64,000 nt of DNA from assembly GCF_002909255.1 (NCBI RefSeq), contig NZ_PIOB01000005.1, forward strand, positions 248,001 to 312,000, in the 5' to 3' direction. The notes under the pieces were generated by a model. It made no database searches. It had not been told where the DNA came from and worked only from the letters and a program-made list of their open reading frames with translations. The position numbers and the translations under genes are program-made. Of this stretch, positions 7,439 through 25,385 are shown in pieces (positions within the stretch are counted from its first letter, which is position 1; each line of letters begins with the position of its first letter). Source of the DNA: Arenibacter hampyeongensis (GTDB lineage: Bacteria > Bacteroidota > Bacteroidia > Flavobacteriales > Flavobacteriaceae).

Positions 7439-7481
7439 TGATAAGTGTCATATTTTAATAGACCACATCATGGTATTTTTG
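7439..7481 (+). promoter_or_regulatory. Fnr-type box and -7 element for hemN
   Basis: TGATAAGTGTCA at 7439-7450 matches TGAYA-N2-TGTCA. Exactly 23 nt later TATTTTTG (7474-7481) fits TAnnTTTG perfectly. The same spacing occurs at four other promoters in the window. Transcription would begin near 7487, which rules out start codons upstream of that point and supports the hemN ATG at 7506. The box centre would then lie near -42, a position where Crp/Fnr proteins activate. Confidence 0.75.
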
Positions 7482-7505
7482 TTGCAATCTCAAACAAAAC
7501 TTCTT

Positions 7506-8867
7506 ATGTCCAATTTGGTTCAAAAATATAATATCCCTGGCCCCCGTTATACCAGTTATCCCACCGTTCCCTATTGGGATTTGGAATCTTTTTCTGGCCA
7601 GCAATGGAAATCTACATTGATCAATAGTTTTAATAAAAGTAATGGGGATGAGGGTATAAGCCTATATATTCATTTACCTTTCTGTGAAAGCCTTTGTACA
7701 TTTTGCGGCTGCCATAAAAGAATTACCAAGAGACATGAAGTTGAGAATCCTTATATAAGTAATGTTTTAAAGGAGTGGAAGCTTTATTGCGATTTGCTTG
7801 ATGCTAAACCAAGAATAAAGGAACTTCATTTGGGAGGGGGAACACCGACATTTTTTTCCCCTGAAAATTTGACACGTCTTATCAATGGTATTTTTAAGTC
7901 TGCAACCCATGCGGAGAATTATGAATTTAGTTTTGAGGGACACCCAAACAATACTACTAAAGAACACTTGCAAGCCCTTTACAATGTAGGTTTTAGGAGA
8001 GTGAGTTATGGAGTTCAGGATTATAATAAAAAAGTTCAGCTCGCCATTCATAGGTTGCAACCTTTTGCCAACGTGAAAAATGTTACCGAATGGGCTCGGG
8101 AAATAGGATATACTTCGGTGGGGCATGATATTATTTTCGGATTACCTTTTCAGTCCATAGATGATGTTGCCGAAACAATTTTAAAGACCAAGGAGTTAAT
8201 GCCCGATCGTTTGGCCTTCTATAGTTATGCACATGTTCCTTGGTTGAAAGGAAATGGACAAAGAGGGTATAAGGATTCTGATCTGCCCACGGCAGAGGTA
8301 AAGCGGGAGCAGTATGAAATGGGCAAGGCTTTGTTGGGAGAGGTTGGTTATTCCGAAATTGGAATGGATCATTTTTCGCTAAAGACAGATTCCCTATATA
8401 AAGCCATGGAAAACGGAACCTTACATAGGAATTTTATGGGGTATACAGCTTCTAAAACTCGTGTCATGATTGGTTTGGGAGTTTCCAGTATTAGTGATAG
8501 TTGGGATAGCTTTGCCCAAAATGTAAAAAACCTGGAAGAGTACAGCCATCTCGTTGAAAATAATATTATCCCCATCTATAGAGGACACATTTTAACAAAG
8601 GAAGACAGTATTATTCGCAAGCATATCTTAAATTTAATGTGCAGATTTAGAACTAGTTGGGAAAATCAGGAAGAAAGGTTCAATGAATTGGATGCTGTAA
8701 GGAACAAGCTAGGGGAAATGGCTTTGGATGGGTTGGTGGAAATAGCATCGGACAGCATTTGTGTTACCGAAAAGGGAAGGCCCTTCGTACGTAATGTGTG
8801 TATGGCATTCGATTTGTTCCTGCATCGTAAAGCACCTGACACTAGATTGTTTTCAATGACCATCTAA
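7506..8867 (+). CDS. hemN: Oxygen-independent coproporphyrinogen III oxidase
   Basis: Radical SAM enzyme that decarboxylates coproporphyrinogen III to protoporphyrinogen IX without oxygen. It starts MSNLVQKYNIPGPRYTSYPT, the normal HemN N-terminus, and is 453 residues long. The iron-sulfur motif CESLCTFCGC near residue 60 has the C-x3-C-x2-C-x-C arrangement typical of true HemN, unlike HemW. LHLGGGTPTF and FGLPFQS are further family segments. An upstream in-frame ATG at 7470 lies before the predicted transcription start and is rejected. The Fnr-type promoter ties heme synthesis to the nearby cbb3 oxidase, as expected under low oxygen. Confidence 0.95.
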   Translation: MSNLVQKYNIPGPRYTSYPTVPYWDLESFSGQQWKSTLINSFNKSNGDEGISLYIHLPFCESLCTFCGCHKRITKRHEVENPYISNVLKEWKLYCDLLDAKPRIKELHLGGGTPTFFSPENLTRLINGIFKSATHAENYEFSFEGHPNNTTKEHLQALYNVGFRRVSYGVQDYNKKVQLAIHRLQPFANVKNVTEWAREIGYTSVGHDIIFGLPFQSIDDVAETILKTKELMPDRLAFYSYAHVPWLKGNGQRGYKDSDLPTAEVKREQYEMGKALLGEVGYSEIGMDHFSLKTDSLYKAMENGTLHRNFMGYTASKTRVMIGLGVSSISDSWDSFAQNVKNLEEYSHLVENNIIPIYRGHILTKEDSIIRKHILNLMCRFRTSWENQEERFNELDAVRNKLGEMALDGLVEIASDSICVTEKGRPFVRNVCMAFDLFLHRKAPDTRLFSMTI

Positions 8868-8950
8868 ATGGGCCAAGGACCTAACTTGATAATCTAAGGA
8901 CCGGGCTCATTATTTTATCCTTAGTTAAGAATATTACTAAATATAATCAT

Positions 8951-9772
8951 ATGAAAAAAATTATTGTACCCGTTGATTTTTCAGAACAATCCGAAAATGC
9001 CCTAAAAACAGCTGCGTCCATTGCAACAAAATACGGCTCCGAGATTTTCGTTCTGCATATGCTGGAATTGTCGGAAGCTCTTGTTTCCTCAAATGAGCAG
9101 GCGCATTACCAACAAGCTGTTTTTTTAATAAAACTGGCAGAAAAAAGGTTTGAAACATTTTTGGATAAACCATACTTAAAGGGCATCAAGACTACGCCAA
9201 TTGTTAAACATCACAAGGTGTATAGTGAGGTGAATGCCATAGCAGAAAAGCACGGTGCCGATCTAATTGTAATGGGTTCTCAGGGGACGGATGGAATCAA
9301 AGAAATTTTTGTAGGTTCAAATGCCGAAAAAATGGTAAGGAATTCCAATATTCCGGTCCTGGTAATCAAGGATCATATCGAGGGTTTCGAGGTAAAGAGA
9401 TTTGTGTTTGCCTGCGATTTTGAGGAAGAAAATCTAGATGCCTTTCACAGGGCAAAAAAATTGGCGGATAAGCTTGCTGCAGAATTGATTTTGGTAAATA
9501 TTAATACTCCGGGGGATAACTTTTTGAGCACAAAAGATGCCTTTAAGAAAATTAATAAGTTTCTACATTTAGCGCAGGCGAGTTTGGAGGTCGAGATATA
9601 TAATGACTATACTGTTGAAAGGGGAATACTTGGTTTTAGTGAAGGTAGGAATGCCGATTTAATTGGATTGCCCACACACGGCAGAAAAGGACTTTCCCAC
9701 TTTCTTATGGGTAGTATAGGGGAGGATGTCACCAACCATTCCAAAATACCTGTTATTACTTTTAAAATTTAA
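8951..9772 (+). CDS. Universal stress protein, two Usp domains
   Basis: 273 residues with two tandem UspA-like domains. The first begins KKIIVPVDFSEQSENALK and ends with the ATP-binding-type motif GSQGTDGIKEIFVGSNAEKM near residues 112-131. The second ends GLPTHGRKGLSHFLMGSIG. Such proteins are cytoplasmic and linked to survival under stress or respiratory limitation. It lies 83 bp after hemN on the same strand but no TGAYA-N2-TGTCA box was found in that gap, so it may be read through from hemN or have its own promoter. Confidence 0.88.
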   Translation: MKKIIVPVDFSEQSENALKTAASIATKYGSEIFVLHMLELSEALVSSNEQAHYQQAVFLIKLAEKRFETFLDKPYLKGIKTTPIVKHHKVYSEVNAIAEKHGADLIVMGSQGTDGIKEIFVGSNAEKMVRNSNIPVLVIKDHIEGFEVKRFVFACDFEEENLDAFHRAKKLADKLAAELILVNINTPGDNFLSTKDAFKKINKFLHLAQASLEVEIYNDYTVERGILGFSEGRNADLIGLPTHGRKGLSHFLMGSIGEDVTNHSKIPVITFKI

Positions 9773-9938
9773 TTGCTTCAGGAAAACCATTAGGGTTGAT
9801 GAAACCTTGAATCCAATTTATTTACCTTGGTTTTTTGATTCTTGTCGTGTTAAAATAGTGGTACGATGTATGGCTTAAATCGTTATATTTGAGGGACATG
9901 GGTTTGTCAACATTAGCTAATTCTGAAAAATCCTCGAT

Positions 9939-11006
9939 ATGAAAGTTTATGCCATCATTTTTTTTTCGGTTGTTTTTATTTCCAATACGGTTAGAGCGCA
10001 GGAAGATATTTTATTGAAGGATTACGATCCAGTATCCATTTACAATCTTCCCAAGACAAAAATTGCCAAAGCTAAATTTCCGGTGGTGGATTTTCATTCA
10101 CATCCCAATCCCAAGTCCGAACAGGAAATAATGGAATGGGTAGAGACAATGGACAAATTTGGGGTTGCTAAATCCATTATACTTACCTATCAAACCGGTA
10201 AGTCCTTTGATAGTATTGTAAACCTTTATTCCAAATATGGAGACCGTTTTGAACTATGGTGCGGTTTCGATTTTACTGGGTACAATGAAAAGGGGTGGAG
10301 CAAACGCGCTGTAAAGGAATTGGAAAGATGCTATAAGATGGGAGCAAGGGGAGTTGGTGAGTTGGGCGATAAGGGACTTGGTTTCTTTTACTCCAAACCC
10401 ACGCCAGCGTATGGAATGCATGCGGATGATGAGAGAATGAAACCACTCTGGGAAAAATGTGGTGAATTGGGTATGCCAGTGAGTATACATGTTGCAGATC
10501 CCATGTGGATGTACGAACCCATGGATGTTCATAATGATGGGCTGATGAACGCGTACAAATGGCGCATAGATACTAAAAAAGAGGGCTTGTTGACCCACGG
10601 AGAATTAATTACAACTTTGGAGAATGCTGTTAGAGAAAATCCAAAGACCACTTTTATAGCCTGTCACTTTGCGAATTGTAGCCATGATTTGGATATTCTT
10701 GGAAGGTTATTGGGTAAATATGATAATATGTATGCCGATATATCGGCCAGATTTGCGGAAACGGCCGCCGTTCCCCGTTATACAAAGCGTTTTTATGAAA
10801 AGTATCAGGATAAATTGGTATACGGTACGGATATGGGCAATGATCCAGAAATGTACGAATTAACATTTCGCATTTTGGAAAGTGAGGATGAGCATTTTTA
10901 TGACAAGAATATTTCCTCCTATCATTGGTCGTTTAATGGTTTGGGACTTAGTGATGAAGTTTTGAAAAAGGTGTATAACGAAAATGCGAAAAAGATATTG
11001 GACTAG
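9939..11006 (+). CDS. Secreted amidohydrolase-family (amidohydrolase 2) protein
   Basis: 355 residues. A signal peptide of about 20 residues (VYAIIFFSVVFISNTVRA) predicts export. The mature part is a TIM-barrel metal hydrolase: metal-binding VDFHSHPNP near residue 50, a His in VSIHVADP, a His in FIACHFANCSHD, and an Asp in VYGTDMGND. The family includes decarboxylases and lactonases, and the substrate is not predictable. It converges with the PIG-L deacetylase gene, leaving only 28 bp between them. No close operon partner is present. Confidence 0.8.
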   Translation: MKVYAIIFFSVVFISNTVRAQEDILLKDYDPVSIYNLPKTKIAKAKFPVVDFHSHPNPKSEQEIMEWVETMDKFGVAKSIILTYQTGKSFDSIVNLYSKYGDRFELWCGFDFTGYNEKGWSKRAVKELERCYKMGARGVGELGDKGLGFFYSKPTPAYGMHADDERMKPLWEKCGELGMPVSIHVADPMWMYEPMDVHNDGLMNAYKWRIDTKKEGLLTHGELITTLENAVRENPKTTFIACHFANCSHDLDILGRLLGKYDNMYADISARFAETAAVPRYTKRFYEKYQDKLVYGTDMGNDPEMYELTFRILESEDEHFYDKNISSYHWSFNGLGLSDEVLKKVYNENAKKILD

Positions 11007-11034
11007 TCAGACATCATTAAGGCTACCTTCTATA

Positions 11035-11904
11035 TTATTTCTTTAGCATGGGGAATAAAATTTTTATTTCCTCATCGGTGGGTTGTTTGCCGTACTCACA
11101 TATTTCAAATCCTTCAATATGTTTGGCGTTGGAAGCTTTATTGCCATACCATTTTACAGCGCATTTCACGAGCACTTCATTGGGGGCATGAGATCTCCAA
11201 TTGGCCAACATTTCCAGTCTGCCTTTATCATCCTCGGGCACTTTTTCCAAATTGCCGGCGGTCCAGGGAAGCCATTCGAAGAACTGTGATTTATGTGCTG
11301 ACATGGCATAAATTTTTTGATCAAAAACATCATCAATTATTACCGCAATATCAGGTTCAAAAGGACTAGGTTTTTGAAAGCCATCTTCGGAGTATAGGAA
11401 GACTGGGTTTTTTTGAAGAGGTGCTACATCCGGGGCTACATTGGGAACAATGACCATATAGGCGGCATCTTGTACCAAAACACCCGTATACCTGTGGTCT
11501 GGATGGTAGTCATTGGGTCGGGGTGCAATGACCACGTTGGCGTTCCATTTTCTAATTTCCCGTATTACCTTTAGACGATTTTCCAATGTAGGCATTAATT
11601 CCCCATCATGGTTGTCCAATACCGTGTATTCCACCCCAAATCTTTTACCTGCTTCTTTAGCCTCTGCAATCCTTATTTTGGCAAGTTCCCCACCGCCCAT
11701 GGCATAATGACCGGCGTCACCATTGGTCAGGGATACAAACTTCACATTATGGCCCATTTGGGCAAGTAAAATGGCCGTACCACCGGTATCAATATCACAA
11801 TCGTCAGGATGGGCTCCAAAAACTATAACGTTTAACTTTTCACCTTGGGAAAATAAAAGGCTGGCATTTAAAATAAGAAAACAGATTAGTATAACATTTT
11901 TCAT
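11035..11904 (-). CDS. Exported PIG-L family deacetylase
   Basis: 289 residues from the chosen ATG, which directly precedes a signal peptide (KNVILICFLILNASLLFS). A longer in-frame start at 11940 would put a polar tail before the signal and is less likely. The zinc site is clear: FGAHPDDCDIDTGG near residue 28 gives the His-Pro-Asp-Asp motif, and NDYHPDHRYTG supplies the third His. Family members remove acetyl groups from N-acetylglucosamine-type substrates. Here the enzyme is predicted to be periplasmic or lipid-exposed, with an unknown substrate. It is transcribed convergently with the amidohydrolase. Confidence 0.85.
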   Translation of the reverse strand: MKNVILICFLILNASLLFSQGEKLNVIVFGAHPDDCDIDTGGTAILLAQMGHNVKFVSLTNGDAGHYAMGGGELAKIRIAEAKEAGKRFGVEYTVLDNHDGELMPTLENRLKVIREIRKWNANVVIAPRPNDYHPDHRYTGVLVQDAAYMVIVPNVAPDVAPLQKNPVFLYSEDGFQKPSPFEPDIAVIIDDVFDQKIYAMSAHKSQFFEWLPWTAGNLEKVPEDDKGRLEMLANWRSHAPNEVLVKCAVKWYGNKASNAKHIEGFEICEYGKQPTDEEIKILFPMLKK

Positions 11905-12051
11905 TGGTTGTTGATTAAAGGTTTGGTTGCAACAGTCCACTGTCCAGATTAACCCTAAGGGTCCAAGAAAAGGGGATTCCAGTACACTAGAAAATTACAT
12001 TATTTTTACAAGTACTACAAATCTGATTTTCGTGTACAGGCAGAGGGGAGT

Positions 12052-12753
12052 TTAATGGCAATCCAAAGTGTTGGTAACTACCTCCATAACCGGTTCAGGA
12101 GAAATATAGGGAATTCCAAGTCCCATACCTCTTAATATAAACAATAGCCCAATTAGGATTACGAAAACCGGAATCAATCGTTGAACCGATTTTTTGGCGC
12201 TGCCTTTCAACATGCTGCCAAAGTAAACAGCAGTGGTCATCAAAGGGATCGTTCCCATTCCAAATAAGACCATGAAAAGTGCTCCAAGCCATGGGCTGGC
12301 CGTGGCAATACTTCCAAACAGGGCTATATAAACCAACCCACAGGGAAGCAGTCCATTAAGGAGGCCAATGGTTAAAAATGTATCGGGACTTTTCTTTTGC
12401 AATTCTTTTCCAAGTCGGTTTTTTAGGTTGGACAAGAGAGAGTATATAGGTTTGGAGAGGTTATATTTACTAAATGTTTTGTAGGGAATAAGAATTATAG
12501 ATATCATTATGACCCCTATTATTATGGAAAGCCTTTGTTGCATTCCAAAGACATAAAGTCCTTTTCCCAAAAATCCAAAAACCAGACCAAGAATACCGTA
12601 GGAAGTAAGCCTGCCCAAATGGTAAAGCAAAACCTGCAGGAGTTTTTTGGTGGGTTTGTTATGGTCTACCGGTAGCATAAAGGCAATAGGGCCGCACATT
12701 CCAACACAGTGGAAGCTTCCTAATAGTCCCATAATTAAGGCAGATAACAACAT
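12052..12753 (-). CDS. TauE/SafE-like membrane protein, cbb3 cluster
   Basis: 233 residues, mostly hydrophobic, with about six predicted membrane segments. The N-terminus contains FHCVGMCGPIAF, a Cys-x3-Cys-Gly-Pro motif characteristic of the COG2836 group often annotated as sulfite exporter. Members of this group commonly occur at the end of cco clusters in Bacteroidota and may handle copper for the oxidase, which is an inference. It starts 24 bp after fixH and is the last gene of the cluster on this strand. No sulfur-metabolism genes are adjacent, so sulfite export is doubtful. Confidence 0.8.
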   Translation of the reverse strand: MLLSALIMGLLGSFHCVGMCGPIAFMLPVDHNKPTKKLLQVLLYHLGRLTSYGILGLVFGFLGKGLYVFGMQQRLSIIIGVIMISIILIPYKTFSKYNLSKPIYSLLSNLKNRLGKELQKKSPDTFLTIGLLNGLLPCGLVYIALFGSIATASPWLGALFMVLFGMGTIPLMTTAVYFGSMLKGSAKKSVQRLIPVFVILIGLLFILRGMGLGIPYISPEPVMEVVTNTLDCH

Positions 12754-12777
12754 AATTTTGTGTGGTTCTTTCGTTTC

Positions 12778-13236
12778 TTATTTATTGTCGCGATAGGTTA
12801 TTTTTTTCTTGAACAAATAGACCTCGCCTTCGTATTCCCAATGTACTTTAATGTCCCAGCGACCATCCAACAAGCGATTGTCAGGTATGAGCAAATAGTC
12901 TTCGGATAAACTTACGGGTAAGTCAAAATCCAAGTGCTTGTTGGAAGGCCTGTACAGGGACACTGTGCCTTTAATATTTTCTAGTTTCAAGTTTTTTGGG
13001 AACACTAATCTTAAACCTTCTTCGGTTGTTTCCAATGTAAGGTCAACTTCTTTGGCATGGGCATTATTTTCGGCATCAATTTCCTTTTGATACCCCAATT
13101 CAGCGCTGTAGTAATTCTCGGTTACCAGATCATGATTGGCCTTATTGTCCATGCTCATACGGACAACAAAAAACAATATAAAACTTATAAATCCGATGAA
13201 GGCTAGTACAATTCCGGTTCCCCAATTAATTTTCAT
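12778..13236 (-). CDS. fixH: FixH/CcoH cbb3 oxidase assembly protein
   Basis: 152 residues. One N-terminal membrane helix (GIVLAFIGFISFILFFVV) is followed by a short helix with VTENYYSAELGYQKEID, the hallmark of FixH, then a periplasmic beta-rich domain with DGRWDIKVHWE near the end. FixH is needed for stable assembly of the cbb3 complex, probably by interacting with the CcoI copper pump and the oxidase. It lies 78 bp downstream of ccoG and 24 bp upstream of the TauE-like gene, in the standard order. Confidence 0.9.
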   Translation of the reverse strand: MKINWGTGIVLAFIGFISFILFFVVRMSMDNKANHDLVTENYYSAELGYQKEIDAENNAHAKEVDLTLETTEEGLRLVFPKNLKLENIKGTVSLYRPSNKHLDFDLPVSLSEDYLLIPDNRLLDGRWDIKVHWEYEGEVYLFKKKITYRDNK

Positions 13237-13314
13237 AGCTTTTAAATTTTGTTACGTTTTCCAATCCAATGGAAATTCAATTTATTTTATTGGTCTGCAA
13301 CCTACTACTTTAAT

Positions 13315-14733
13315 TTACTTATAGCTCCTAGGGGCTAAAAACCTTGCTGTGGCGGTTTCAATTAACGCTTCCCCACTATAGACCCCAATCCTTAATTTGT
13401 TTTTGTCACCTTCCAAGGTTGAATTATTTATTTCAACAAATAGGGTGCCTTCGGCCAACCCCTGTGCTGGTACGATAAAATGTTCATTCCTGACAAGGTT
13501 GATGGTTCCCTTGTGTGATAATAGCTTAAAACTCACGTCGTTAATTTCCTTGGTGGTTTTGTTTACCAATTTATAAGTGTAAACATTGCTAATAATATTG
13601 CCTTCCTTGTGCTCGTATAGTTGTCCGGGAAGTCTTAAGATATTAGCTTCTACTTCATTTCTCAAAAATAACATACCGATCAAGACCCCGGTCAGAATCA
13701 CAAGTACTGCAGTGTACCCTTTTAATCTAGGGGTAAATTTAAACTTGGACTTTTTCTCTATATTGTCCTCACTGGCATAACGGATAAGTCCTTTGGGTAG
13801 GTTTACCTTTTCCATTATGGTATCGCATTCATCAATACATGCTGTACAATTTACGCATTCCAATTGTGTCCCATTTCTAATGTCAATACCAGTAGGGCAG
13901 ACGTTTACACATTGAAAACAATCAATACAATCCCCATTTCCGAGTGCATTTCTATCCTCTCCTTTTCTAAACTTTTTTCGTCCGTTTTCCGCTTCTCCAC
14001 GTTTATGGTCATAAGCCACAACAATGGATTTATTGTCGAGCAGTACGCCCTGCATCCTTCCGTAAGGGCAAGCTATGATACATACTTGTTCCCTGAACCA
14101 TGCAAATACAAAGTAGAATACCGCAGTAAAAATTAAAAGTGATATCAGTGTACTTACATGTTGTAAGGGGCCATCAGTGATGTATTGCATAAGGCGGTCA
14201 CTTCCTATCAAATAGGCTAAAAAAACATTGGCGATCAAAAAGGAAATAATGAAGAAAACAATTAATTTAAGGCCTCGTTTTCTAATTTTTTCGGCATTCC
14301 ATGGCTGTTTGCTGAGACGTATCTGGGCACCTCGGTCTCCATCGATCCAAAATTCGATCCTTCTAAAGACCATTTCCATGAATATGGTTTGGGGGCACAT
14401 CCAACCGCAGAAAATACGGCCAAAAGCAACGGTAAACAGCGCTATAAAAATTACCCCGATGATCATTGAAATTACAAAAAGATGAAAATCCTGGGGCCAA
14501 AAAGGAAATCCAAAAATGTTGAAACGCCTTTCAAGAACATTGAACATTAGGAACTGGTTGCCATTTATTTTTACAAAGGGTGCCAGAATAAGAAAGGCCA
14601 ATAGGACATAACTTACATACTTGCGATATTCATAAAACTTGCCACTGGGTTTTTTTGGAAATATCCATGCCCTTTTCCCATCTTCATTTATAGTTCCTAT
14701 GGAATCCCTAAAATTGTCCTGGTCCTGTACCAT
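13315..14733 (-). CDS. ccoG: Cytochrome c oxidase accessory protein CcoG (polyferredoxin)
   Basis: 472 residues, membrane protein with two 4Fe-4S clusters. FCGWMCPQTIFMEMVFR near residue 110 is the conserved N-terminal motif. CIDCFQCVNVCPTGIDIR and CVNCTACIDECDTIMEK give the classical ferredoxin cluster pair. About five membrane helices flank these, and a C-terminal immunoglobulin-like periplasmic domain follows. In other bacteria CcoG reduces copper for insertion into the cbb3 oxidase. The gene lies 68 bp after ccoP, within the transcribed cluster. Confidence 0.95.
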   Translation of the reverse strand: MVQDQDNFRDSIGTINEDGKRAWIFPKKPSGKFYEYRKYVSYVLLAFLILAPFVKINGNQFLMFNVLERRFNIFGFPFWPQDFHLFVISMIIGVIFIALFTVAFGRIFCGWMCPQTIFMEMVFRRIEFWIDGDRGAQIRLSKQPWNAEKIRKRGLKLIVFFIISFLIANVFLAYLIGSDRLMQYITDGPLQHVSTLISLLIFTAVFYFVFAWFREQVCIIACPYGRMQGVLLDNKSIVVAYDHKRGEAENGRKKFRKGEDRNALGNGDCIDCFQCVNVCPTGIDIRNGTQLECVNCTACIDECDTIMEKVNLPKGLIRYASEDNIEKKSKFKFTPRLKGYTAVLVILTGVLIGMLFLRNEVEANILRLPGQLYEHKEGNIISNVYTYKLVNKTTKEINDVSFKLLSHKGTINLVRNEHFIVPAQGLAEGTLFVEINNSTLEGDKNKLRIGVYSGEALIETATARFLAPRSYK

Positions 14734-14801
14734 TTATATGTAATGCTTTATTGGAATTTTGGGTATGCGTTAAAATGTGCTCAATAATGTGTTTTAATAA
14801 T

Positions 14802-15680
14802 TTACTCCCCGGTCCAGATTTCGCCTTCTGCCGCCTTTGGATTGGCAGGGACCTTGCCATTTATTTCACTGAGTATAAAGCTGGCCACCTGCGCTATTTC
14901 GACTGGTTTAAGGGTCTGTTTCCAAGCTATCATTCCCTTGCCGTCCCTACCGCCTTCAGAAATGGTATGGAAAACGTTTTTGATTCCACCTCCCAAGATC
15001 CAGTGTTCGTCCGTAAGATTCGGGCCTATGCCTCCACCGCCGTCCGGCATATGGCAGGCTACACAACTGGAACTATAGATAGTGGCCCCGGCCTTAATAT
15101 CAGAGGCCTCGGTCAAAAGTTCCACGGTGTTGGCATCAACCAAGCCTTTGGCTGTTTTTTTATACTCTTCAATGGCAATCATGGCTTCTGCCACTTCCTG
15201 TTCATATTCCTCGTTCTGGGTGTAGTCATTGAATACGTGGAAACGAGCGAGGTAAACCACACCGAAAATTATGGTGGCATAGAACATGTACACCCACCAA
15301 GGTGGAAGATTGTTGTCCAGTTCACGGATACCGTCGTAATTGTGGTCAAGGATGATTTCCTTTTCTTCCTCTATAGGTTTGTTTCCGGTCATTTTTTCCC
15401 AGAATTCCTTACCCCATTTCCATTCCCATTGTTTCGATTTAGTTTCTAAATAGCGCTTTTGGGCTTCAGGGGATAATGTTTGGAACATTACGTTTTCCAC
15501 TGATTTTAGAATCAATTCAATTCCAATCAATATGAACAGCACCATCAACATGAAAAGAAGGGTGATAGGGTATTCAATAAATGCTGGTTTGTCCCCGGAG
15601 TCAATAAAATACTCCATCAATCCGAAGATTAGGAAAAAGATTACGGGGACTCTTATCCACCAAGGTGACATATTTCTCAT
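14802..15680 (-). CDS. ccoP: cbb3-type cytochrome c oxidase subunit III (CcoP)
   Basis: 292 residues. Two N-terminal membrane segments are followed by PWWVYMFYATIIFGVVY, the conserved CcoP membrane helix, then a single cytochrome c domain with heme motif CVACH near residue 207 and a methionine-type axial ligand region GKGMIAWKQTL. Proteobacterial CcoP has two hemes, while single-heme forms are usual in this phylum, so nothing appears missing. Its ATG overlaps the ccoQ stop by four bases (ATGA), which indicates translational coupling. Confidence 0.93.
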   Translation of the reverse strand: MRNMSPWWIRVPVIFFLIFGLMEYFIDSGDKPAFIEYPITLLFMLMVLFILIGIELILKSVENVMFQTLSPEAQKRYLETKSKQWEWKWGKEFWEKMTGNKPIEEEKEIILDHNYDGIRELDNNLPPWWVYMFYATIIFGVVYLARFHVFNDYTQNEEYEQEVAEAMIAIEEYKKTAKGLVDANTVELLTEASDIKAGATIYSSSCVACHMPDGGGGIGPNLTDEHWILGGGIKNVFHTISEGGRDGKGMIAWKQTLKPVEIAQVASFILSEINGKVPANPKAAEGEIWTGE

Positions 15681-15871
15681 AATAATTCTTCTTTAGTTTG
15701 GTTTTCTATTTCTAATGGTATTTCGCTTACTTCCTTGATATGTTCTTTAGAGGCAGTAAATACCCACCAAAAAAGAATGGTAAAAAACAAAAAGAAGATA
15801 AGCAGTGATATCATGGGATAGGTGGCAACGCCCTCTATACTTTCCATATAACCTTTTACAAATTTTAGCAT
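15677..15871 (-). CDS. ccoQ: cbb3 oxidase small subunit CcoQ
   Basis: A 64-residue protein with one membrane helix (MISLLIFFLFFTILFWWVF) and a charged C-terminal tail, matching CcoQ in size, topology and position. It sits between ccoNO and ccoP, 3 bp after the former and overlapping the latter by four bases. CcoQ is thought to stabilise the assembled oxidase. Sequence conservation in the family is low, so the call leans on gene order. Confidence 0.88.
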   Translation of the reverse strand: MLKFVKGYMESIEGVATYPMISLLIFFLFFTILFWWVFTASKEHIKEVSEIPLEIENQTKEELL

Positions 15872-15874
15872 GAC

Positions 15875-18076
15875 TTATTTGTTTTGTGAAATTATTTCGT
15901 CCGTTTCCTTTATTTTTATGTCCGTACCCAAACGTTGCAGATAGGCGATCATAGCTACAATTTCCCTATCCCTCATATCTATAAATTCTTCCCCGTTTTC
16001 GGCGGCATATTTTTTGTCCTCTTCATACCCTTTGGCAAAATCGGGGTCGGAATATAAATTCTTTTCTATTTTGGTAGCTTGGTCATCCATGGATTGTTGC
16101 GCATTTGCGATCTCCTCTTCGGAATATGGTACTCCCAAGGTAACCATGGTCTCCATTTTTGTCTGAATATTTCCTCTATCGTGTCTATTGTGCACCAACC
16201 ATGAATAGGATGGCATAATAGAGCCGGAAGAGGTACTTTGTGGGTCGTACATGTGGTTCAAATGCCAGTTGTCCGAATATTTACCACCTATCCTCATAAG
16301 ATCTGGACCTGTGCGTTTGCTTCCCCAAAGGAAAGGATGGTCATATACATATTCTCCAGCTTTGGAGTACTCGCCATAACGCTCTACCTCACTTCGGAAA
16401 GGCCTAATCATTTGGGAATGACAGCCAACACAGCCCTCCCGTATATAAAGATCTCTCCCCTCCAATTCTAGAGGTGTATAGGGTTTAACGCTTGTTATTG
16501 TCGGGATATTCGATTTTACCAGAATGGTGGGTACTATTTGTATAATTCCACCGATCAAAATGGCTATGGTAGCCAATATGGTCAATTGAATGGGTTTGCG
16601 CTCCAACCAAGTGTGGAAAGTTTCTCCGACCGTTCTTTTTTTGGATACAGTGGTCAAGGCAGCTGCCTCGGCCAATTCATCCTCTACTTCAGTTCCGTTC
16701 TTAATGGTAATTACCACATTGTAAATCATGACTATTGCACCAATAATGAACATGGTACCTCCAATGGCCCGCATCCAGTACATGGGGATAATTTCATTTA
16801 CTGTCTCCAGAAAGTTGCCATAAGCCAGGGTACCATCCGGGTTAAACTCTTTCCACATTAAGGCCTGGGTAAAGCCGGCAACATACATTGGAAGGGCATA
16901 AAGTATTATTCCCAAGGTGCCGATCCAGAAATGAAAATTGGCCATGGGTATTGAGTGTAATCTTGTCTTGAACATTTTTGGAACCATCCAGTAGATCATC
17001 CCGAAAGTCAAGAATCCGTTCCAGGCCAAGGCGCCCACGTGCACGTGTGCAATGATCCAATCACTAAAATGCGCTATGGCATTTACATTTTTAAGGGAAA
17101 GCATTGGTCCTTCAAAAGTAGCCATACCGTAGCCCGTAATGGCAACTACCATGAATTTTAAAACCGGGTCTGTCCTTACCTTATCCCAAGCTCCACGCAA
17201 AGTCAATAATCCATTGATCATACCGCCCCAGGACGGTGCGATCAGCATTATAGAAAAGGCTACCCCCAAATTTTGGGCCCACTCAGGTAAAGTGGAATAC
17301 AACAAGTGGTGCGGTCCGGCCCAGATGTAAATAAATATCAGGGACCAAAAATGTACAATGGATAATCTATAGGAGTATACAGGCCTATTGGCCGCTTTGG
17401 GCACAAAGTAATACATTAATCCCAAGAAAGGTGTGGTGAGGAAGAAGGCCACCGCATTGTGTCCATACCACCATTGCACCAAGGCATCCTGCACTCCTGC
17501 ATATACCGAATAACTTTTTAAGGCACTAACGGGAAGGGCAAGACTATTAAAGATATGTAGTACTGCAACTGTTACAAATGTTGCCAGATAAAACCAAATG
17601 GCCACATATAAATGGCGCTGCCTTCTTTTTAACATTGTCCCGATTAGGTTCCAGCCAAAGGCTACCCAGACTACTGCAATGGCTAAATCTATTGGCCATT
17701 CCAGTTCCGCATATTCTTTGGATGAAGAGTATCCCAATGGCAGGGTAATAGCTGCTGCTACTATGATGGCTTGCCACCCCCAGAAATTAAAATTACTTAA
17801 GGCATCGCTGAACATTCTCGCCTTTAACAAACGCTGGGTAGAATAATAAACGCCGGCAAAAATGGCATTTCCCACAAAGGCAAAAATAACCGCGTTGGTG
17901 TGTAATGGCCTTAAACGGCCAAAACTCAACCAAGATATACCATCGGTTAAATTTGGAAAAAGAAACATAAAGGCAAGCAATAAACCTACCGACATACCCA
18001 CAATTCCCCAAAACATAGTTGCATAAAGGAATTTTTTTACGATTTTGTTATCGTAATAAAACTGTTGTACTTCCAT
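15875..18076 (-). CDS. ccoNO: Fused cbb3 oxidase subunits I and II (CcoN-CcoO)
   Basis: 733 residues joining the catalytic subunit CcoN to the monoheme cytochrome CcoO. The CcoN part has about 12 membrane helices, with heme and copper ligands in RPLHTNAVIFAF, WWYGHNAVAFFL, AGPHHLLYS and AHVHVGALAWNG. From about residue 535 the CcoO part has heme motif CVGCHSQMIRPF, then PSYSWLV with the likely Met ligand region, and ends with a cytosolic-length tail. Fusion of N and O is common in Bacteroidota and not a local error, since there is no stop or frameshift at the junction. It starts 2 bp after ccoS. Confidence 0.95.
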   Translation of the reverse strand: MEVQQFYYDNKIVKKFLYATMFWGIVGMSVGLLLAFMFLFPNLTDGISWLSFGRLRPLHTNAVIFAFVGNAIFAGVYYSTQRLLKARMFSDALSNFNFWGWQAIIVAAAITLPLGYSSSKEYAELEWPIDLAIAVVWVAFGWNLIGTMLKRRQRHLYVAIWFYLATFVTVAVLHIFNSLALPVSALKSYSVYAGVQDALVQWWYGHNAVAFFLTTPFLGLMYYFVPKAANRPVYSYRLSIVHFWSLIFIYIWAGPHHLLYSTLPEWAQNLGVAFSIMLIAPSWGGMINGLLTLRGAWDKVRTDPVLKFMVVAITGYGMATFEGPMLSLKNVNAIAHFSDWIIAHVHVGALAWNGFLTFGMIYWMVPKMFKTRLHSIPMANFHFWIGTLGIILYALPMYVAGFTQALMWKEFNPDGTLAYGNFLETVNEIIPMYWMRAIGGTMFIIGAIVMIYNVVITIKNGTEVEDELAEAAALTTVSKKRTVGETFHTWLERKPIQLTILATIAILIGGIIQIVPTILVKSNIPTITSVKPYTPLELEGRDLYIREGCVGCHSQMIRPFRSEVERYGEYSKAGEYVYDHPFLWGSKRTGPDLMRIGGKYSDNWHLNHMYDPQSTSSGSIMPSYSWLVHNRHDRGNIQTKMETMVTLGVPYSEEEIANAQQSMDDQATKIEKNLYSDPDFAKGYEEDKKYAAENGEEFIDMRDREIVAMIAYLQRLGTDIKIKETDEIISQNK

Positions 18077-18078
18077 AA

Positions 18079-18285
18079 TTACAATTTTTGACTTTCACTT
18101 TTTTGGTTAGATATTTTTTTGGTGTCCGCAGTAGTATCTTTTACGAGTTCATCCTCAAAAAGCATGCGAACGGATGGGGTATAGGAATCATCATATTGAC
18201 CATTCTTTGTAGCAATAATAAAAGCCGCAAAAAATATGACGGCTACAACAATACTCAATGACAACAATAAATAAATTACACTCAT
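18079..18285 (-). CDS. ccoS: cbb3 oxidase maturation protein CcoS
   Basis: 68 residues. A single N-terminal membrane helix (VIYLLLSLSIVVAVIFFAAFI) is followed by KNGQYDDSYTPSVRMLFED, in which the Gly-Gln-Tyr-Asp-Asp segment is typical of CcoS. The protein is needed for cofactor insertion into cbb3 oxidase. It is the first gene of the long cluster ccoS-ccoNO-ccoQ-ccoP-ccoG-fixH-TauE, and its promoter carries the Fnr-type box 51 bp upstream. Confidence 0.92.
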   Translation of the reverse strand: MSVIYLLLSLSIVVAVIFFAAFIIATKNGQYDDSYTPSVRMLFEDELVKDTTADTKKISNQKSESQKL

Positions 18286-18304
18286 ACCTACCTGAATTTG
18301 GGTG

Positions 18305-18347
18305 TAAAACTAAACATGGGGATTATGGAATAATATGACATTTGTCA
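18305..18347 (-). promoter_or_regulatory. Fnr-type box and -7 element for the ccoS-ccoNO-ccoQ-ccoP cluster
   Basis: TGACATTTGTCA at 18336-18347 is a perfect 12-bp palindrome of the TGAYA-N2-TGTCA type. On the minus strand exactly 23 nt follow before TAGTTTTA (18312-18305), which fits TAnnTTTG except for the last base. The site lies directly upstream of ccoS and predicts Fnr-dependent expression of the whole oxidase cluster. Confidence 0.75.
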
Positions 18348-18577
18348 GCTTTTGATAAAATATTGTAAGTTCTGCTCCCAAGATTATGTTTATCCAGCCC
18401 CTCTTTTCAAATATCCAATTATTTATTGTGATTCGGGTTTGAAATCTTTAAAAATATAAAGGCTATATCTGTTCTATTCAAGAGTATGTTAGATGGCGAA
18501 GAATAGGGGTTAGTCAAAATTATTGTGTTTTATGCCCGAATTTTTCAATTTAAACAAGGATTTATGTGAAAGATTTT

Positions 18578-18585
18578 TAGTTTTG
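18578..18585 (+). promoter_or_regulatory. Possible -7 element for the PVC-type cytochrome gene
   Basis: In the 381-bp gap between ccoS and the downstream plus-strand gene, TAGTTTTG fits TAnnTTTG and lies 82 nt before the ATG. No Fnr-type box precedes it at the spacing seen elsewhere. Apart from the ccoS promoter, the rest of the gap shows nothing recognisable. Confidence 0.3.
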
Positions 18586-18666
18586 CCCAACTCTGTTGAG
18601 AATTCGGAAATCCTTACCCTATATTTTCAATCTAGAGTGAAATTATAAATTTTAACTTCATAGAAT

Positions 18667-21315: not shown

Positions 21316-21356
21316 GTAAGGCGGCGTTCCTAGACCAATTGGCTTATTAAATAAGT

Positions 21357-21391
21357 AAAAGGCAACCCTTTAAAATCGGTTGCCTTTTTAT
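21357..21391 (+). terminator. Rho-independent terminator after the PVC-type cytochrome gene
   Basis: An 11-bp perfect stem, AAAAGGCAACC with GGTTGCCTTTT, encloses a 10-nt loop and runs into TTTTTATTT. It lies 42 bp past the stop codon. The A-run on the 5' side could also let it act for ccoI on the other strand. Confidence 0.88.
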
Positions 21392-21444
21392 TTGTTGAAG
21401 ATTGTTCATAAACTATGTTCAGCCGACCACCGTTCAACTGTATG

Positions 21445-23826
21445 TTATTCTTTTCCTAGCTTACGTCCCAGTCTGTTGGTGGCAAGTGTAGTGAAAAGCA
21501 CAATGCTGATTGAACTCAATGGCATCAGAATGGCTGCAATAACGGGCTCCAATTGTCCGGTTACCGCAAAATATAACCCCACTACATTGTATAATAAAGA
21601 AAGGACAAAACTTAGTTTTATGATCTTGATGGCTTTTCTTGAGGCTAGAATATACTGGTATAGGAATTTGAAATTTTTAGCATCCAGAATACCATCACAG
21701 GCGGGGGAAAAAACATTTACGTTTTCGGATATGGCTATACCTACATTGCTTTGCGCCAAAGCTCCTGCATCGTTTAGGCCATCACCTACCATCATTACTT
21801 TTTTATTTTGATCTTGGAGCGACTTTATGAAATGGAGCTTGCTGTCCGGTTTTTGATTAAAATATAAAGGAGTTCCTTCTGGCAATATTTTGGTAAGATT
21901 GGATTTTTCGCCAGCGTTGTCCCCTGATAGGATTGCCAATTCCAGATCTAAGGACATGGTTTGGAAGGTTTCCTCGACCCCATCCCGATAATGGTTCTGA
22001 AAAATAAAACATCCCTTGTATTGATCGTTGGAGCTAAGGTGTACCGAGGTGTTTTCGGTATTGTCTGTTTGCGTATTGCCGACAAAGGCGGCCGAACCAA
22101 TTTTAACGCTATCCGTAATGGTTGAACCTTTGATTCCCTGTCCCAAATATTCTTCGTATTCTTCCAGAGGCACAATGTTTTGTTCCGCCAAAATATCATA
22201 AAGCTTTCTACTCAAAGGGTGATTGGATGAACGTAAGGTGTTTTTTAACAAAGACTCTTCTTCACTGGTCAGTTCCAGTCCTTCATAGTATACATGTCCC
22301 TTTTCGGCAGTAGTAATAGTGCCCGTTTTGTCGAAAATAGCGGTATCGATCTGCGCCAATTGTTCAATGGTCTGTGTATCCCTTAAATAAAATCTATTCC
22401 GCCCAAAAATCCGCAGCATATTGCCCAAGGTAAAAGGGGCGGCCAAAGCAATGGCGCAAGGGCATGCAATAATAAGTACTGCGGTAAAGACATTTACGGT
22501 TTTGCCGGGGTCTATCATTAACCATGTTAATGCCGAGACAAAGGCTATAGTCAAGACAGCAATCGTAAATCTTTTGCCTATACTATCGGTCAGGGTTTGA
22601 AAACTTCCCGATTTATCCTGTTGAAAAACGGCATTGCTCCAAAGCTGGGTGAGATAGCTTTGGGAAACAGATTTTAAGGTCTCAATTTCAATAGCACTGC
22701 TCAGCTGTCGTCCTCCTGCATAGACTTTATCACCTGATTTTTTGTCCACAGGTTCCGATTCGCCAGTAACAAAACTATAATCTATTCTTGCATTTCCATT
22801 GATCAAAATAGCATCCACAGGAATTAGTTCCCCACTTCTTATTAGGAGTCTATCTCCACTTTTTATGTCATAAACCTGAGTGTTCTCCTCGGTGTTTTTA
22901 CTTGTAATTCTAGTCACCGCAATGGGGAAATAGGATTTATAATCACGTTCAAAAGAAAGGTAGGAATATGTTTTTTGCTGAAAGAATTTGCCTAAAAGTA
23001 AAAAGAATACCAATCCCGTTAGACTATCAAAAAAGCCAGATCCCCAATCGAAGATAATTTCGACGGTACTTCTTAGGAATAAAACCAAAATGCCCAGCGC
23101 AATGGGGATATCAATATTTAAAAATTTTGATCTTAAGCCCTTATAGGCTGAAATGAAATAATCCTGTGCGGCATAGAATACCACAGGTAGGGAAAAGGCG
23201 AACATTAGCCATCTAAAAACTCCCTTAAATTGTTCCAGCCAAAATTCCCCTACCTCAAAATATTCAGGAAAGGAAAGAAACATGACATTGCCAAAGGCAA
23301 ATCCGGCAATACCCAATTTATAGGATAAACTACGGTCTATGCCTTTTTTCTTTTTGTCGTAGTCGTCTAAGGAAATGTAGGGTTCATATCCAATTCTGGA
23401 CATTAAGAGCACCAATTCCTTAAGGGTAATCTTGTCGGAATTATAGGTTACCCTAACCGTCTTTTTAGGAAAGTCTACCTGGGAACTGTTGATGCCTGTA
23501 TTTAATTTATTTAAATTTTCCAATATCCAAATACAGGAACTACAATGTATATGAGGTATATATAGATTTATAATTTGGGTGCCATTATCGTTGAACTCTA
23601 TAAGTTTTTCTATAATGCTTTTGGATTCCAGAAAGTTGTACTTACCTTCAATTTCCTTTGGAGAGGCCCCCGCTGCGGATTGTAGGTCATAATAGTAGGA
23701 TAAGTCGTTATTGGCAAAAATCTCATAGACTGTTTTGCAGCCAACACAACAGAAGTTTTTATCATTATGAATTATGGGAGTTCTCCCGCAATCGTCACCA
23801 CAATGATAGCAAGTTGCTTTATCCAT
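21445..23826 (-). CDS. ccoI: Copper-translocating P-type ATPase of the cbb3 assembly type (CcoI/FixI)
   Basis: 793 residues. The N-terminus has a Cys-rich segment (ATCYHCGDDCGRT and FCCVGCKTVYEIF) typical of CcoI in this phylum, then a heavy-metal-associated domain with IHCSSCIWILENL. The P1B ATPase core follows: IIACPCAIALAAPF for the metal site, IFDKTGTITT with the phosphorylated Asp, SNHPLSRK with the nucleotide-binding His-Pro, and MVGDGLNDAGAL. CcoI exports copper for insertion into the oxidase. It is transcribed toward the PVC-type gene and shares a divergent promoter region with fnr. Its separation from ccoS by an opposing gene is a local peculiarity. Confidence 0.93.
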   Translation of the reverse strand: MDKATCYHCGDDCGRTPIIHNDKNFCCVGCKTVYEIFANNDLSYYYDLQSAAGASPKEIEGKYNFLESKSIIEKLIEFNDNGTQIINLYIPHIHCSSCIWILENLNKLNTGINSSQVDFPKKTVRVTYNSDKITLKELVLLMSRIGYEPYISLDDYDKKKKGIDRSLSYKLGIAGFAFGNVMFLSFPEYFEVGEFWLEQFKGVFRWLMFAFSLPVVFYAAQDYFISAYKGLRSKFLNIDIPIALGILVLFLRSTVEIIFDWGSGFFDSLTGLVFFLLLGKFFQQKTYSYLSFERDYKSYFPIAVTRITSKNTEENTQVYDIKSGDRLLIRSGELIPVDAILINGNARIDYSFVTGESEPVDKKSGDKVYAGGRQLSSAIEIETLKSVSQSYLTQLWSNAVFQQDKSGSFQTLTDSIGKRFTIAVLTIAFVSALTWLMIDPGKTVNVFTAVLIIACPCAIALAAPFTLGNMLRIFGRNRFYLRDTQTIEQLAQIDTAIFDKTGTITTAEKGHVYYEGLELTSEEESLLKNTLRSSNHPLSRKLYDILAEQNIVPLEEYEEYLGQGIKGSTITDSVKIGSAAFVGNTQTDNTENTSVHLSSNDQYKGCFIFQNHYRDGVEETFQTMSLDLELAILSGDNAGEKSNLTKILPEGTPLYFNQKPDSKLHFIKSLQDQNKKVMMVGDGLNDAGALAQSNVGIAISENVNVFSPACDGILDAKNFKFLYQYILASRKAIKIIKLSFVLSLLYNVVGLYFAVTGQLEPVIAAILMPLSSISIVLFTTLATNRLGRKLGKE

Positions 23827-23851
23827 AGATTATTTGCTTAATACCTGGTTG

Positions 23852-23894
23852 CAAAGATGGCCAGGTTTGCCATTCCAAAACATGACAAATGTCA
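23852..23894 (-). promoter_or_regulatory. Fnr-type box and -7 element for ccoI
   Basis: The palindrome TGACAAATGTCA (23883-23894) lies in the 122-bp divergent region. Reading toward ccoI, exactly 23 nt follow before CATCTTTG (23859-23852), which matches TAnnTTTG in all but the first base. The same palindrome serves the fnr promoter in the other direction. Confidence 0.65.
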
Positions 23895-23925
23895 GTTTTT
23901 TCCCAAGATATAACCTTTAAATTTG
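23883..23925 (+). promoter_or_regulatory. Fnr-type box and -7 element for fnr (autoregulation)
   Basis: From the shared palindrome at 23883-23894, 23 nt lead to TAAATTTG (23918-23925), a perfect TAnnTTTG. The regulator would thus control its own gene and ccoI from a single symmetric site. Because the box is equidistant from both -7 elements, simultaneous activation by one bound dimer is geometrically possible only in one direction at a time. Confidence 0.7.
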
Positions 23926-23948
23926 TCACATCAGGTAATTATAATTAT

Positions 23949-24635
23949 ATGGGCAGATGTGAAAATTGTATAATTCGCCAATTCAACTCCTTACGTGCGA
24001 TGAACAAGGAGGAGTTAAAGAGGGTTTCAGATACTAAAACTACCAAATTTTTAAAAAAAGGGGAAATCATCTTTGGGGAAGGAGATAAGCTCAATGGTGT
24101 ATATTGTGTAAGGGACGGGGTTTCCAAGTTATCCAAATTAAGCCCCAATGGTAAAGATCAAATAGTAAAATTGGCAACTAAAGGTGCCGTTTTGGGTCAG
24201 CGTTCCGTAATTACCGAAGAAGTGGCCAATTTAAGTGCAATTGCAGTAAATGATATGGAGGTTTGTTTTGTTCCGAAGGACGCTATTTTGGATACCTTAA
24301 ACAGCAATCCCAATTTTGCGGTAGAAGTTCTAAGACATATAGCCCACGATTTAAAGGAGGCAGATGATGTTATAGTCAATATGTCCCAAAAAACCGTGAA
24401 GCAACGGATAGCGGAAGCTTTTATTTATTTGGAGGAAAATTTTGGTGAGGATCAAAATGGCTATTTGGCCCTAACATTATCCAGGGAAGATATAGCCAAT
24501 GTAGTTGGGACGGCCACAGAATCTGCAATCCGTATTATTTCTGAATTCAAAAAATTAGGATTGATAAAAGCATCTGGAAAAAAAGTGGCCATAGCCAATA
24601 GACAGGGACTTAATGATGTTGCAAAAGGGTCCTGA
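23949..24635 (+). CDS. Crp/Fnr-family regulator, likely Fe-S oxygen sensor
   Basis: 228 residues from the ATG at 23949. An upstream in-frame start overlaps the operator and is rejected. The N-terminus reads MGRCENCIIRQF, with Cys4 and Cys7, then a cyclic-nucleotide-binding-like beta-roll (GEIIFGEGD, GVYCVRDG with Cys53), Cys106 in MEVCFVP, a dimer helix, and a winged helix with LSREDIANVVGTATESAIR. Cys7 and Cys106 are 99 residues apart, the same distance I recall between Cys23 and Cys122 of E. coli FNR. This supports an iron-sulfur sensor, but the third N-terminal Cys position differs. The recognition helix keeps Glu and Arg of E-x3-R. Target sites appear at five local promoters. Confidence 0.88.
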   Translation: MGRCENCIIRQFNSLRAMNKEELKRVSDTKTTKFLKKGEIIFGEGDKLNGVYCVRDGVSKLSKLSPNGKDQIVKLATKGAVLGQRSVITEEVANLSAIAVNDMEVCFVPKDAILDTLNSNPNFAVEVLRHIAHDLKEADDVIVNMSQKTVKQRIAEAFIYLEENFGEDQNGYLALTLSREDIANVVGTATESAIRIISEFKKLGLIKASGKKVAIANRQGLNDVAKGS

Positions 24636-24810
24636 TCCAATTAAACATATTTCTCAATGTTGTCATGATCGTCTTCTGCTTAACTAGAACCATCAAATAT
24701 TCCAAGAAGAAACAATTGGATCAATCCCAAAAGTTGTGTGTAAATTAGAAATGATAGGATGAACTATCCTGGAGTTTGTGTTTTGTTCATTTTTTACATC
24801 GCCAAAAAAA

Positions 24811-25020
24811 CGACCAGGGCCGAATAGCCAAGGTACGGTGTACCCTGGTTAGGAGGAGCCAGCTGTAGCCATGGCTAGGCTGATTTTAAATTTCTATAAA
24901 TCCACGCACTTTCCACGGCCGCACCGTCTAGGCCGCTTTCACTTGGGTGAACATGGGCTAATGGACGCCTGCCTGCCTGAAGGTAGGGCTTCCATCTCCC
25001 AATGTGGAAACCACTTGAGT
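24811..25020. other. GC-richer palindromic block in a 798-bp gap
   Basis: The gap from 24636 to 25433 holds no convincing gene. Its middle part is clearly richer in G and C than the flanks and is full of short inverted repeats: ACCAGGG (24813) with CCCTGGT (24843), GGTAC with GTACC inside that, the perfect palindrome TAGCCATGGCTA (24866-24877), TTCAC/GTGAA near 24940, and GTGG-aaa-CCAC near 25005. The minus strand is open for about 45 codons from about 25020 down to a stop at 24875-24877 but has no start codon. It could be a structured RNA, a dispersed repeat, or a decayed gene. The flanks are plain AT-rich sequence. Confidence 0.45.
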
Positions 25021-25342
25021 AAAATGAAAGAATAATTTAATAATTGGTCTTACTGCATTATTCCCACCAATTAAAGCTATTGATCAAAAACACGACCAAT
25101 CAAATTAATCTTAATTTTCTATTAACCCAACTATAAACAATGATCTCAGTTCAGAGGTGTGAAAAAGGTTGAGTTCTTCCTTTATAGATTAAACACAATA
25201 TTTGCATAAACACAACAATTGTTCTTGACCCGAACAATTTTCATTTTTATTATTTCTTTTTTATGCAGTAATTCCGCAGTAAGCCACTATTTAGCTCGGT
25301 TATATCTGCTTATTTTAACTATTCACTTTCATCATCAAAAGC

Positions 25343-25385
25343 TGATAAATGTCATAGTACAGGTTTTTAACTTCCTATAATTTTA
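25343..25385 (+). promoter_or_regulatory. Fnr-type box and -7 element for the second universal stress gene
   Basis: TGATAAATGTCA (25343-25354) is followed after exactly 23 nt by TAATTTTA (25378-25385), one mismatch from TAnnTTTG. Transcription would start near 25391, about 43 nt before the TTG start codon. This links the stress protein to the same low-oxygen control as the oxidase genes. Confidence 0.72.

Follow-up and report, generated by a model that had tools for sequence, protein, structure and literature searches.

Based on sequence comparisons, we suggest a model for gene control in Arenibacter hampyeongensis in which boxes of the Crp/Fnr type lie at one fixed distance from the -7 promoter element TAnnTTTG. 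The window, i.e. the whole stretch of 64,000 nucleotides (nt) that was analysed (contig NZ_PIOB01000005.1, positions 248,001 to 312,000), contains four exact matches to the box pattern TGAYANNTGTCA. These boxes cover five promoter directions, with one box used both ways, and in all five directions exactly 23 nt separate the box from the -7 element, as an earlier note on this DNA had claimed; five separate boxes were considered and rejected. We regard it as very likely that the genes behind the boxes are part of a low-oxygen regulon of Arenibacter, in which an Fnr-like protein encoded at 23949 would be the main regulator and activation would be of class II.

Boxes and -7 elements in the window, the genome and relatives

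On the plus strand, the hemN promoter has the box TGATAAGTGTCA at 7439-7450 and the -7 element TATTTTTG at 7474-7481, 23 nt past the box. The ccoS promoter, on the minus strand, combines the box TGACAAATGTCA (18336-18347) with the -7 element TAGTTTTA (18305-18312). The box at 23883-23894, again TGACAAATGTCA, has no single strand and is common to ccoI, with the -7 element CATCTTTG at 23852-23859 on the minus strand, and fnr, with TAAATTTG at 23918-23925 on the plus strand. A universal stress protein (Usp) gene has the box TGATAAATGTCA at 25343-25354 and the -7 element TAATTTTA at 25378-25385, both on the plus strand. All boxes came from the pattern search, and the composite search for box, spacer and -7 element returned all five directions with their -7 elements. 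The hemN frame has its first ATG at 7470, ahead of the -7 element; this codon was therefore rejected as start, which makes 7506 the likely start codon.

In the whole genome, the box alone is about twofold enriched, with 44 exact TGAYANNTRTCA sites compared to 23 for the reversed pattern. For the spacing test, these 44 boxes, collected regardless of spacing, were treated as 88 directions, and a -7 element was called when at least 5/6 letters matched. At a spacing of 23, 21 of the 88 directions have a -7 element, while the other 59 spacings have a mean of 1.02 and a maximum of 4 (P ~1e-21). Position was judged by the longest open reading frames (ORFs) instead of gene-finder calls. On this basis, the -7 element at 23 is present in 20/54 intergenic and 1/34 intragenic directions or, counted by box, in 18/27 intergenic and 1/17 intragenic boxes. 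The composite pattern with up to two mismatches has 46 matches in the genome and its reversed version 6; 41 of the 46 lie outside ORFs, and for 39 of those 41 an ORF starts within 700 nt downstream. The five sites inside ORFs are about the control number. The earlier note had argued that identical spacing is hard to get by chance and had named an equal frequency of motif and spacer inside genes as refuting; the spacing peak bears out the former, and the frequencies are far from equal. Spacing 24 shows a smaller excess, with 3 cases in the genome itself and at least 184 matches, in 112-113 genomes, across a sample of 295 genomes of the class, so that a minority of sites may use this spacing.

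Could the fixed spacing have arisen by chance, or from copies of one inherited promoter? The window by itself has only four boxes, and each palindromic box enters the counts twice, once per direction. However, 16 of the 80 directions outside the window also have the -7 element at 23 (P ~1e-15), the spacers vary from site to site, and the spacer letters drift among species while both ends are retained. We consider chance or copying to be extremely improbable.

The arrangement is conserved in relatives. In 80 Fnr loci taken from GTDB genomes, 198 boxes with distinct context have the -7 element at spacing 23 in 233 of 396 directions; the next most frequent spacings are 0 (35 directions) and 45 (33). 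An exact box is present within 250 nt ahead of fnr in 60 of the 80 loci (59 rows in the spacing count, where loci with identical context were dropped). For these 60 boxes, the -7 element matches in at least 5/6 letters away from fnr in 58 cases and toward fnr in 46, and a homologue of ccoI begins on the far side of the box in 57. Like CATCTTTG in the window, which does not begin with T, the ccoI-facing element has T as first base in 0/60 loci (C in 48, G in 9 and A in 3), and the remainder is mostly kept; by this comparison, the putative ccoI promoter is a conserved off-consensus promoter. With up to one mismatch, the composite pattern gives 371 matches in 18 Arenibacter genomes compared to 2 for the reversed pattern, and 666 matches in 185 of the 295 class genomes compared to 51 control matches in 45. 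Thus, the search of the genome and its relatives that the earlier note had proposed gives enrichment at each level.

A predicted class II layout on the Bacteroidota -7 element

Class II activators bind at -41.5. In the consensus of the 41 sites outside ORFs, the box reads ATGAYAwwTRTCAT, followed by w, T and TAnnTTTG; the letters that belong to the search pattern necessarily appear, because the sites were chosen with TGAYANNTGTCA, while A at -48, T at -35 and T at -33, which flank them, were not imposed by it. Ordinary Bacteroidota sigma-A promoters carry a TTG at -33. Compared to these, the Arenibacter sites add a fixed activator box, and a TTG 18-21 nt ahead of the -7 element is found at only 3/41 sites, a figure that covers the box promoters alone. 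Because the -33 TTG is rare at the box promoters, they may depend on an activator.

In a promoter map of Flavobacterium psychrophilum (PMC9723704), sigma-A promoters have a -7 element identical to that of the Arenibacter box promoters, and TAnnTTTG occupies -12 to -5. With this anchor and the 23-nt spacer, the box would extend from -47 to -36, with its centre at -41.5. The placement of the box centre near -42, at a class II position, in the earlier note is in this way supported, and so is a predicted class II activator layout fitted to the Bacteroidota -7 element. On the same anchor, hemN transcription would start near 7486. With the hemN start at 7506, the predicted leaders of the five window promoters measure 15-44 nt, close to the 24-bp median given for F. 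psychrophilum in the same source. In the model that we suggest, a Crp/Fnr-type dimer on (A)TGAYAwwTRTCAT, centred at -41.5, would adjoin the -7 element TAnnTTTG of the main sigma factor and activate transcription from a class II position.

The Fnr-like protein and the receiver-Crp proteins as candidate regulators

The Fnr-like protein (23949..24635, plus strand; 228 amino acids) was characterized by domain search and alignments. It matches PF00027, PF13545 and PF00325 over cut-off, i.e. a cyclic nucleotide monophosphate (cNMP)-binding fold and a Crp-type helix-turn-helix (HTH), and its closest named relative, from Arenibacter catalasegens, is 97% identical. The earlier note had pointed to Cys4, Cys7 and Cys106; these are present and invariant, and it had missed a fourth cysteine, Cys53, which is invariant as well. 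All four are retained in 81/81 close sequences and in 30/30 rows of a wider set, which comprises 28 other loci besides the reference and the locus of the window itself, L168 (L186 was omitted because it has no usable ORF). In E. coli FNR, the cluster ligands are numbered C20, C23, C29 and C122. In an alignment to solved FNR structures (PDB 5cvr and 5e44, which we take to be FNR of E. coli and Aliivibrio fischeri), which have the Crp fold, a CxxC motif and a later cysteine in common with the Arenibacter protein, Cys4 and Cys7 align with the CxxC, Cys106 with the later cysteine and Cys53 with an alanine. By contrast, the third N-terminal cysteine of FNR is not present: the residue is Asn13 in 81/81 close sequences, and Asn, Ser or Gly in 30/30 rows of the wider set. 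The protein also scores 105 bits against the NCBIfam Fnr model NF008365, which has a cut-off of 228. Because the C29 equivalent is missing and this cut-off is not reached, we call the protein FNR-like. By the Crp fold, the strands of Cys53 and Cys106 would be neighbours. The four invariant cysteines suggest an oxygen-labile [4Fe-4S] cluster, probably bound by Cys4, Cys7 and Cys106, with Cys53 replacing Cys29 of E. coli.

The DNA-binding side gives a similar picture of likeness and difference. FNR sites and the Arenibacter boxes have the TGA-N6-TCA core and, by prediction for the latter, the class II position -41.5 in common. However, the recognition helix carries Ile at a position that is Ser in FNR, and the operator is TGAYA-N2-TRTCA with TAnnTTTG as partner element, compared to TTGAT-N4-ATCAA for FNR. 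The consensus ATGAYAwwTRTCAT, derived from sites picked by the TGAYANNTGTCA pattern, does not fit the TTGAT-N4-ATCAA operator; the TGA-N6-TCA core alone is common to both.

The genome encodes seven proteins with matches to HTH_Crp_2, five of them over cut-off. Three of these five have a common helix core, namely Fnr (GTATESAIRIISEFK), P0002 (GTATETAIRTLSDFK) and P0003 (GIATESLIRTLSGFK), and the other two differ. P0002 and P0003 are each built of a receiver, a cNMP and an HTH_Crp domain, and each adjoins a PAS-type kinase gene. P0002 lies in an operon (L208:502-4300; G000:C27:122302-126100) with a multi-PAS/LOV histidine kinase, behind a box-23-TAnnTTTG promoter. This kinase has 917 amino acids and contains a LOV domain with an intact NCRFLQ cysteine motif as well as HisKA and HATPase domains. 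Among solved structures, the LOV domain is matched best by 'Sensory box' proteins, and LOV entries from phototropin and blue-light photoreceptors rank lower; by its domain make-up, the kinase is a predicted LOV photoreceptor kinase. It is present in 11 of the 18 Arenibacter genomes, and in 11/11 it comes with NCRFLQ, a box-23-TAnnTTTG promoter (one mismatch in ten, two in one) with varying spacer letters, and a receiver-Crp gene with the same helix. By eye, no box at spacing 23 is seen in front of the P0003 kinase, and the LOV motif was not seen in nine other class-wide receiver-Crp loci (L199-L207), which, however, contain only part of a kinase or none. The arrangement recalls the FixL-FixJ-FixK cascade of Alphaproteobacteria, which likewise brings two-component input to a Crp/Fnr regulator of cbb3 oxidase; unlike in that cascade, the Arenibacter proteins carry receiver and Crp domain in a single chain, and a LOV domain occurs in one of the partner kinases.

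Are the boxes read mainly by these receiver-Crp two-component regulators, with the Fnr-like protein in a minor role? The helices of P0002 (GTATETAIR) and P0003 (GIATESLIR) are near to that of Fnr (GTATESAIR), and the genomic island of the receiver-Crp genes holds 19 of the 46 composite sites. In the 295 class genomes, Fnr matches (E <=1e-30, a threshold that also catches paralogues) occur in 164 and P0002 matches (E <=1e-50) in 143. The mean number of composite matches, uncorrected for relatedness, is 4.68 in genomes with both (n = 85), 2.13 with Fnr only (n = 79), 1.29 with receiver-Crp only (n = 58) and 0.34 with neither (n = 73); the control means are 0.12-0.28. Thus, genomes with receiver-Crp proteins alone exceed those with neither, and Arenibacter genomes with the LOV kinase have a mean of 25.8 sites (n = 11) compared to 12.4 without it (n = 7). 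However, genomes with Fnr alone have their average of 2.13 matches, and 4-9 matches occur in five genomes of the window's family (G065, G134, G194, G221 and G247) that have Fnr and lack any receiver-Crp match at 1e-50. Moreover, 25 sites occur in one Arenibacter genome (G300) that lacks the LOV kinase, and the exact box is retained before fnr at three quarters of the loci (60/80). We consider it rather unlikely, if far from negligible, that the receiver-Crp proteins are the principal readers of the boxes.

A different proposal is that the regulator acts as a repressor, or as a Crp homologue that senses carbon in the manner of MalR, and that the boxes are unrelated to oxygen. In a metatranscriptome study (PMC8510549), Crp/Fnr homologues of a Flavobacteriales bin, perhaps not orthologous to the Arenibacter protein, were given a carbon-sensing, MalR-like role; the same source takes four cysteines as the mark of FNR. 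The four cysteines of the Arenibacter protein are invariant, the genes behind the sites include those for cbb3 oxidase, oxygen-independent heme synthesis and nitrite reductase, and the predicted centre at -41.5 is an activator position. We regard this proposal as improbable.

With respect to the reading that we favor, i.e. a low-oxygen regulon with the Fnr-like protein as main regulator, several points count against it, one being that the site numbers above are uncorrected for relatedness. Nine of the 27 intergenic exact boxes lack a -7 element at 23, the 250 nt upstream of fnr contain no exact box in 20 of the 80 Fnr loci, and in 14 of the 60 boxed loci the fnr-facing -7 element matches in fewer than 5/6 letters. 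Two families of the class sample (f10 and f13) have receiver-Crp matches, often with weak Fnr matches, and almost no sites. As to the cluster, Asn, Ser or Gly stands where E. coli has Cys29, and many rows of the wider set outside the window's family (e.g. L175-L180) have a cysteine nine residues past the second one, which could be the cluster ligand in those rows instead of Cys53; in close relatives this extra cysteine is not conserved.

We suggest that the Fnr-like protein is the likely main regulator and that it would also control its own gene together with ccoI. The earlier note had called the local Crp/Fnr protein the obvious regulator. The box before fnr and site numbers that track the regulator support this choice; "obvious" is too simple, because the two receiver-Crp proteins have nearly the same recognition helix and sites rise with them too. 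The receiver-Crp hybrids of this genome would probably bind the same boxes and bring in a kinase-borne signal.

Gene content and meaning of the probable regulon

In the window, the boxes precede hemN with the following Usp gene, the cco cluster, the ccoI-like ATPase gene, fnr and another Usp gene. According to PMC9723704, cbb3 oxidase and heme genes increase in F. psychrophilum under oxygen limitation. Elsewhere in the genome, the genes directly behind sites encode a copper nitrite reductase with a cytochrome c domain, an Alginate_exp protein, a SulP transporter, NadA, a DeoC aldolase, MlaE, a pyridine nucleotide-disulphide oxidoreductase, a cytochrome c, a BLUF protein, YceI, a patatin and Usp-like proteins; the family search behind this list omitted several genes, e.g. 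those at C3:105508, C12:95496, C26:177015 and C1:566396. The nitrite reductase gene (L076:11613-13070) has an exact -7 element 23 nt past its box, which suggests that nitrite respiration is within the regulon. The gene for the BLUF blue-light protein (L049:1040-1471; G000:C2 near 95.6 kb) has a box-23-TAnnTTTG site with two mismatches. The island with 19 of the 46 composite sites lies at ~90-142 kb of contig C27 and is the second such island besides the window. It has about eleven Usp-like genes, as judged from N-termini. It also has genes for acetate kinase, phosphate acetyltransferase, Hsp20, a P-type ATPase, a Beta-CASP protein and glucokinase, and none of these six kinds has a listed site directly ahead. 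The genome-wide, low-oxygen-type regulon that the earlier note had envisaged gains support from the spacing peak, the intergenic bias and the conservation, all of which are properties of the DNA sequence.

The window genes were named by family search. On the plus strand, hemN (7506..8867; ATG at 7506 likely) encodes an oxygen-independent coproporphyrinogen III oxidase (TIGR00538, 435 bits, cut-off 325), and 83 nt 3' of it follows a Usp gene (8951..9772; PF00582) that is perhaps cotranscribed with it. The cco cluster is on the minus strand and consists of genes for a DsbD_2-domain protein (12052..12753), FixH/CcoH (12778..13236), FixG/CcoG (13315..14733), CcoP (14802..15680; FixP_N over cut-off, TIGR00782 below cut-off), a CcoN-CcoO fusion (15875..18076; NF011053, 1350 bits, cut-off 1080) and CcoS (18079..18285; TIGR00847, 32.3 bits, cut-off 28.35). 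The heavy-metal P-type ATPase (21445..23826, minus strand) matches general P-type ATPase families only, and its name, ccoI, comes from its context. The second Usp gene (25434..26336, plus strand; PF00582) has a TTG start. The stretch 24640-25340, between fnr and the usp box, is without any ORF of at least 80 amino acids.

In the open-licence literature, none of the matches listed dealt with an Fnr motif or regulon of Flavobacteriaceae or with receiver-Crp regulators, and the main text of PMC9723704 mentions neither Fnr nor Crp. The regulon is ordinary in principle and, as far as searched, undescribed for the group; its unusual parts are the cysteine set and the receiver-Crp partners. We tentatively speculate that, in Bacteroidota, one operator class serves both an FNR variant, in which the fourth ligand is no longer in the N-terminal loop but in the beta-roll (Cys53), and PAS/LOV-driven receiver-Crp hybrids. 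In Arenibacter, oxygen and blue light (or flavin redox state) might then be joined on the same promoters, because the LOV kinase-receiver-Crp operon carries the box and the BLUF gene, with two mismatches, does so as well.

Gene control at low oxygen seems to have been little described in Bacteroidota, and the box offers a ready genome-wide definition of a low-oxygen regulon. If true, the variant cysteine set would represent another way of building an FNR-type oxygen switch. Similarly, the receiver-Crp proteins point to a possible convergence of phosphorelay and oxygen signals on one DNA site.

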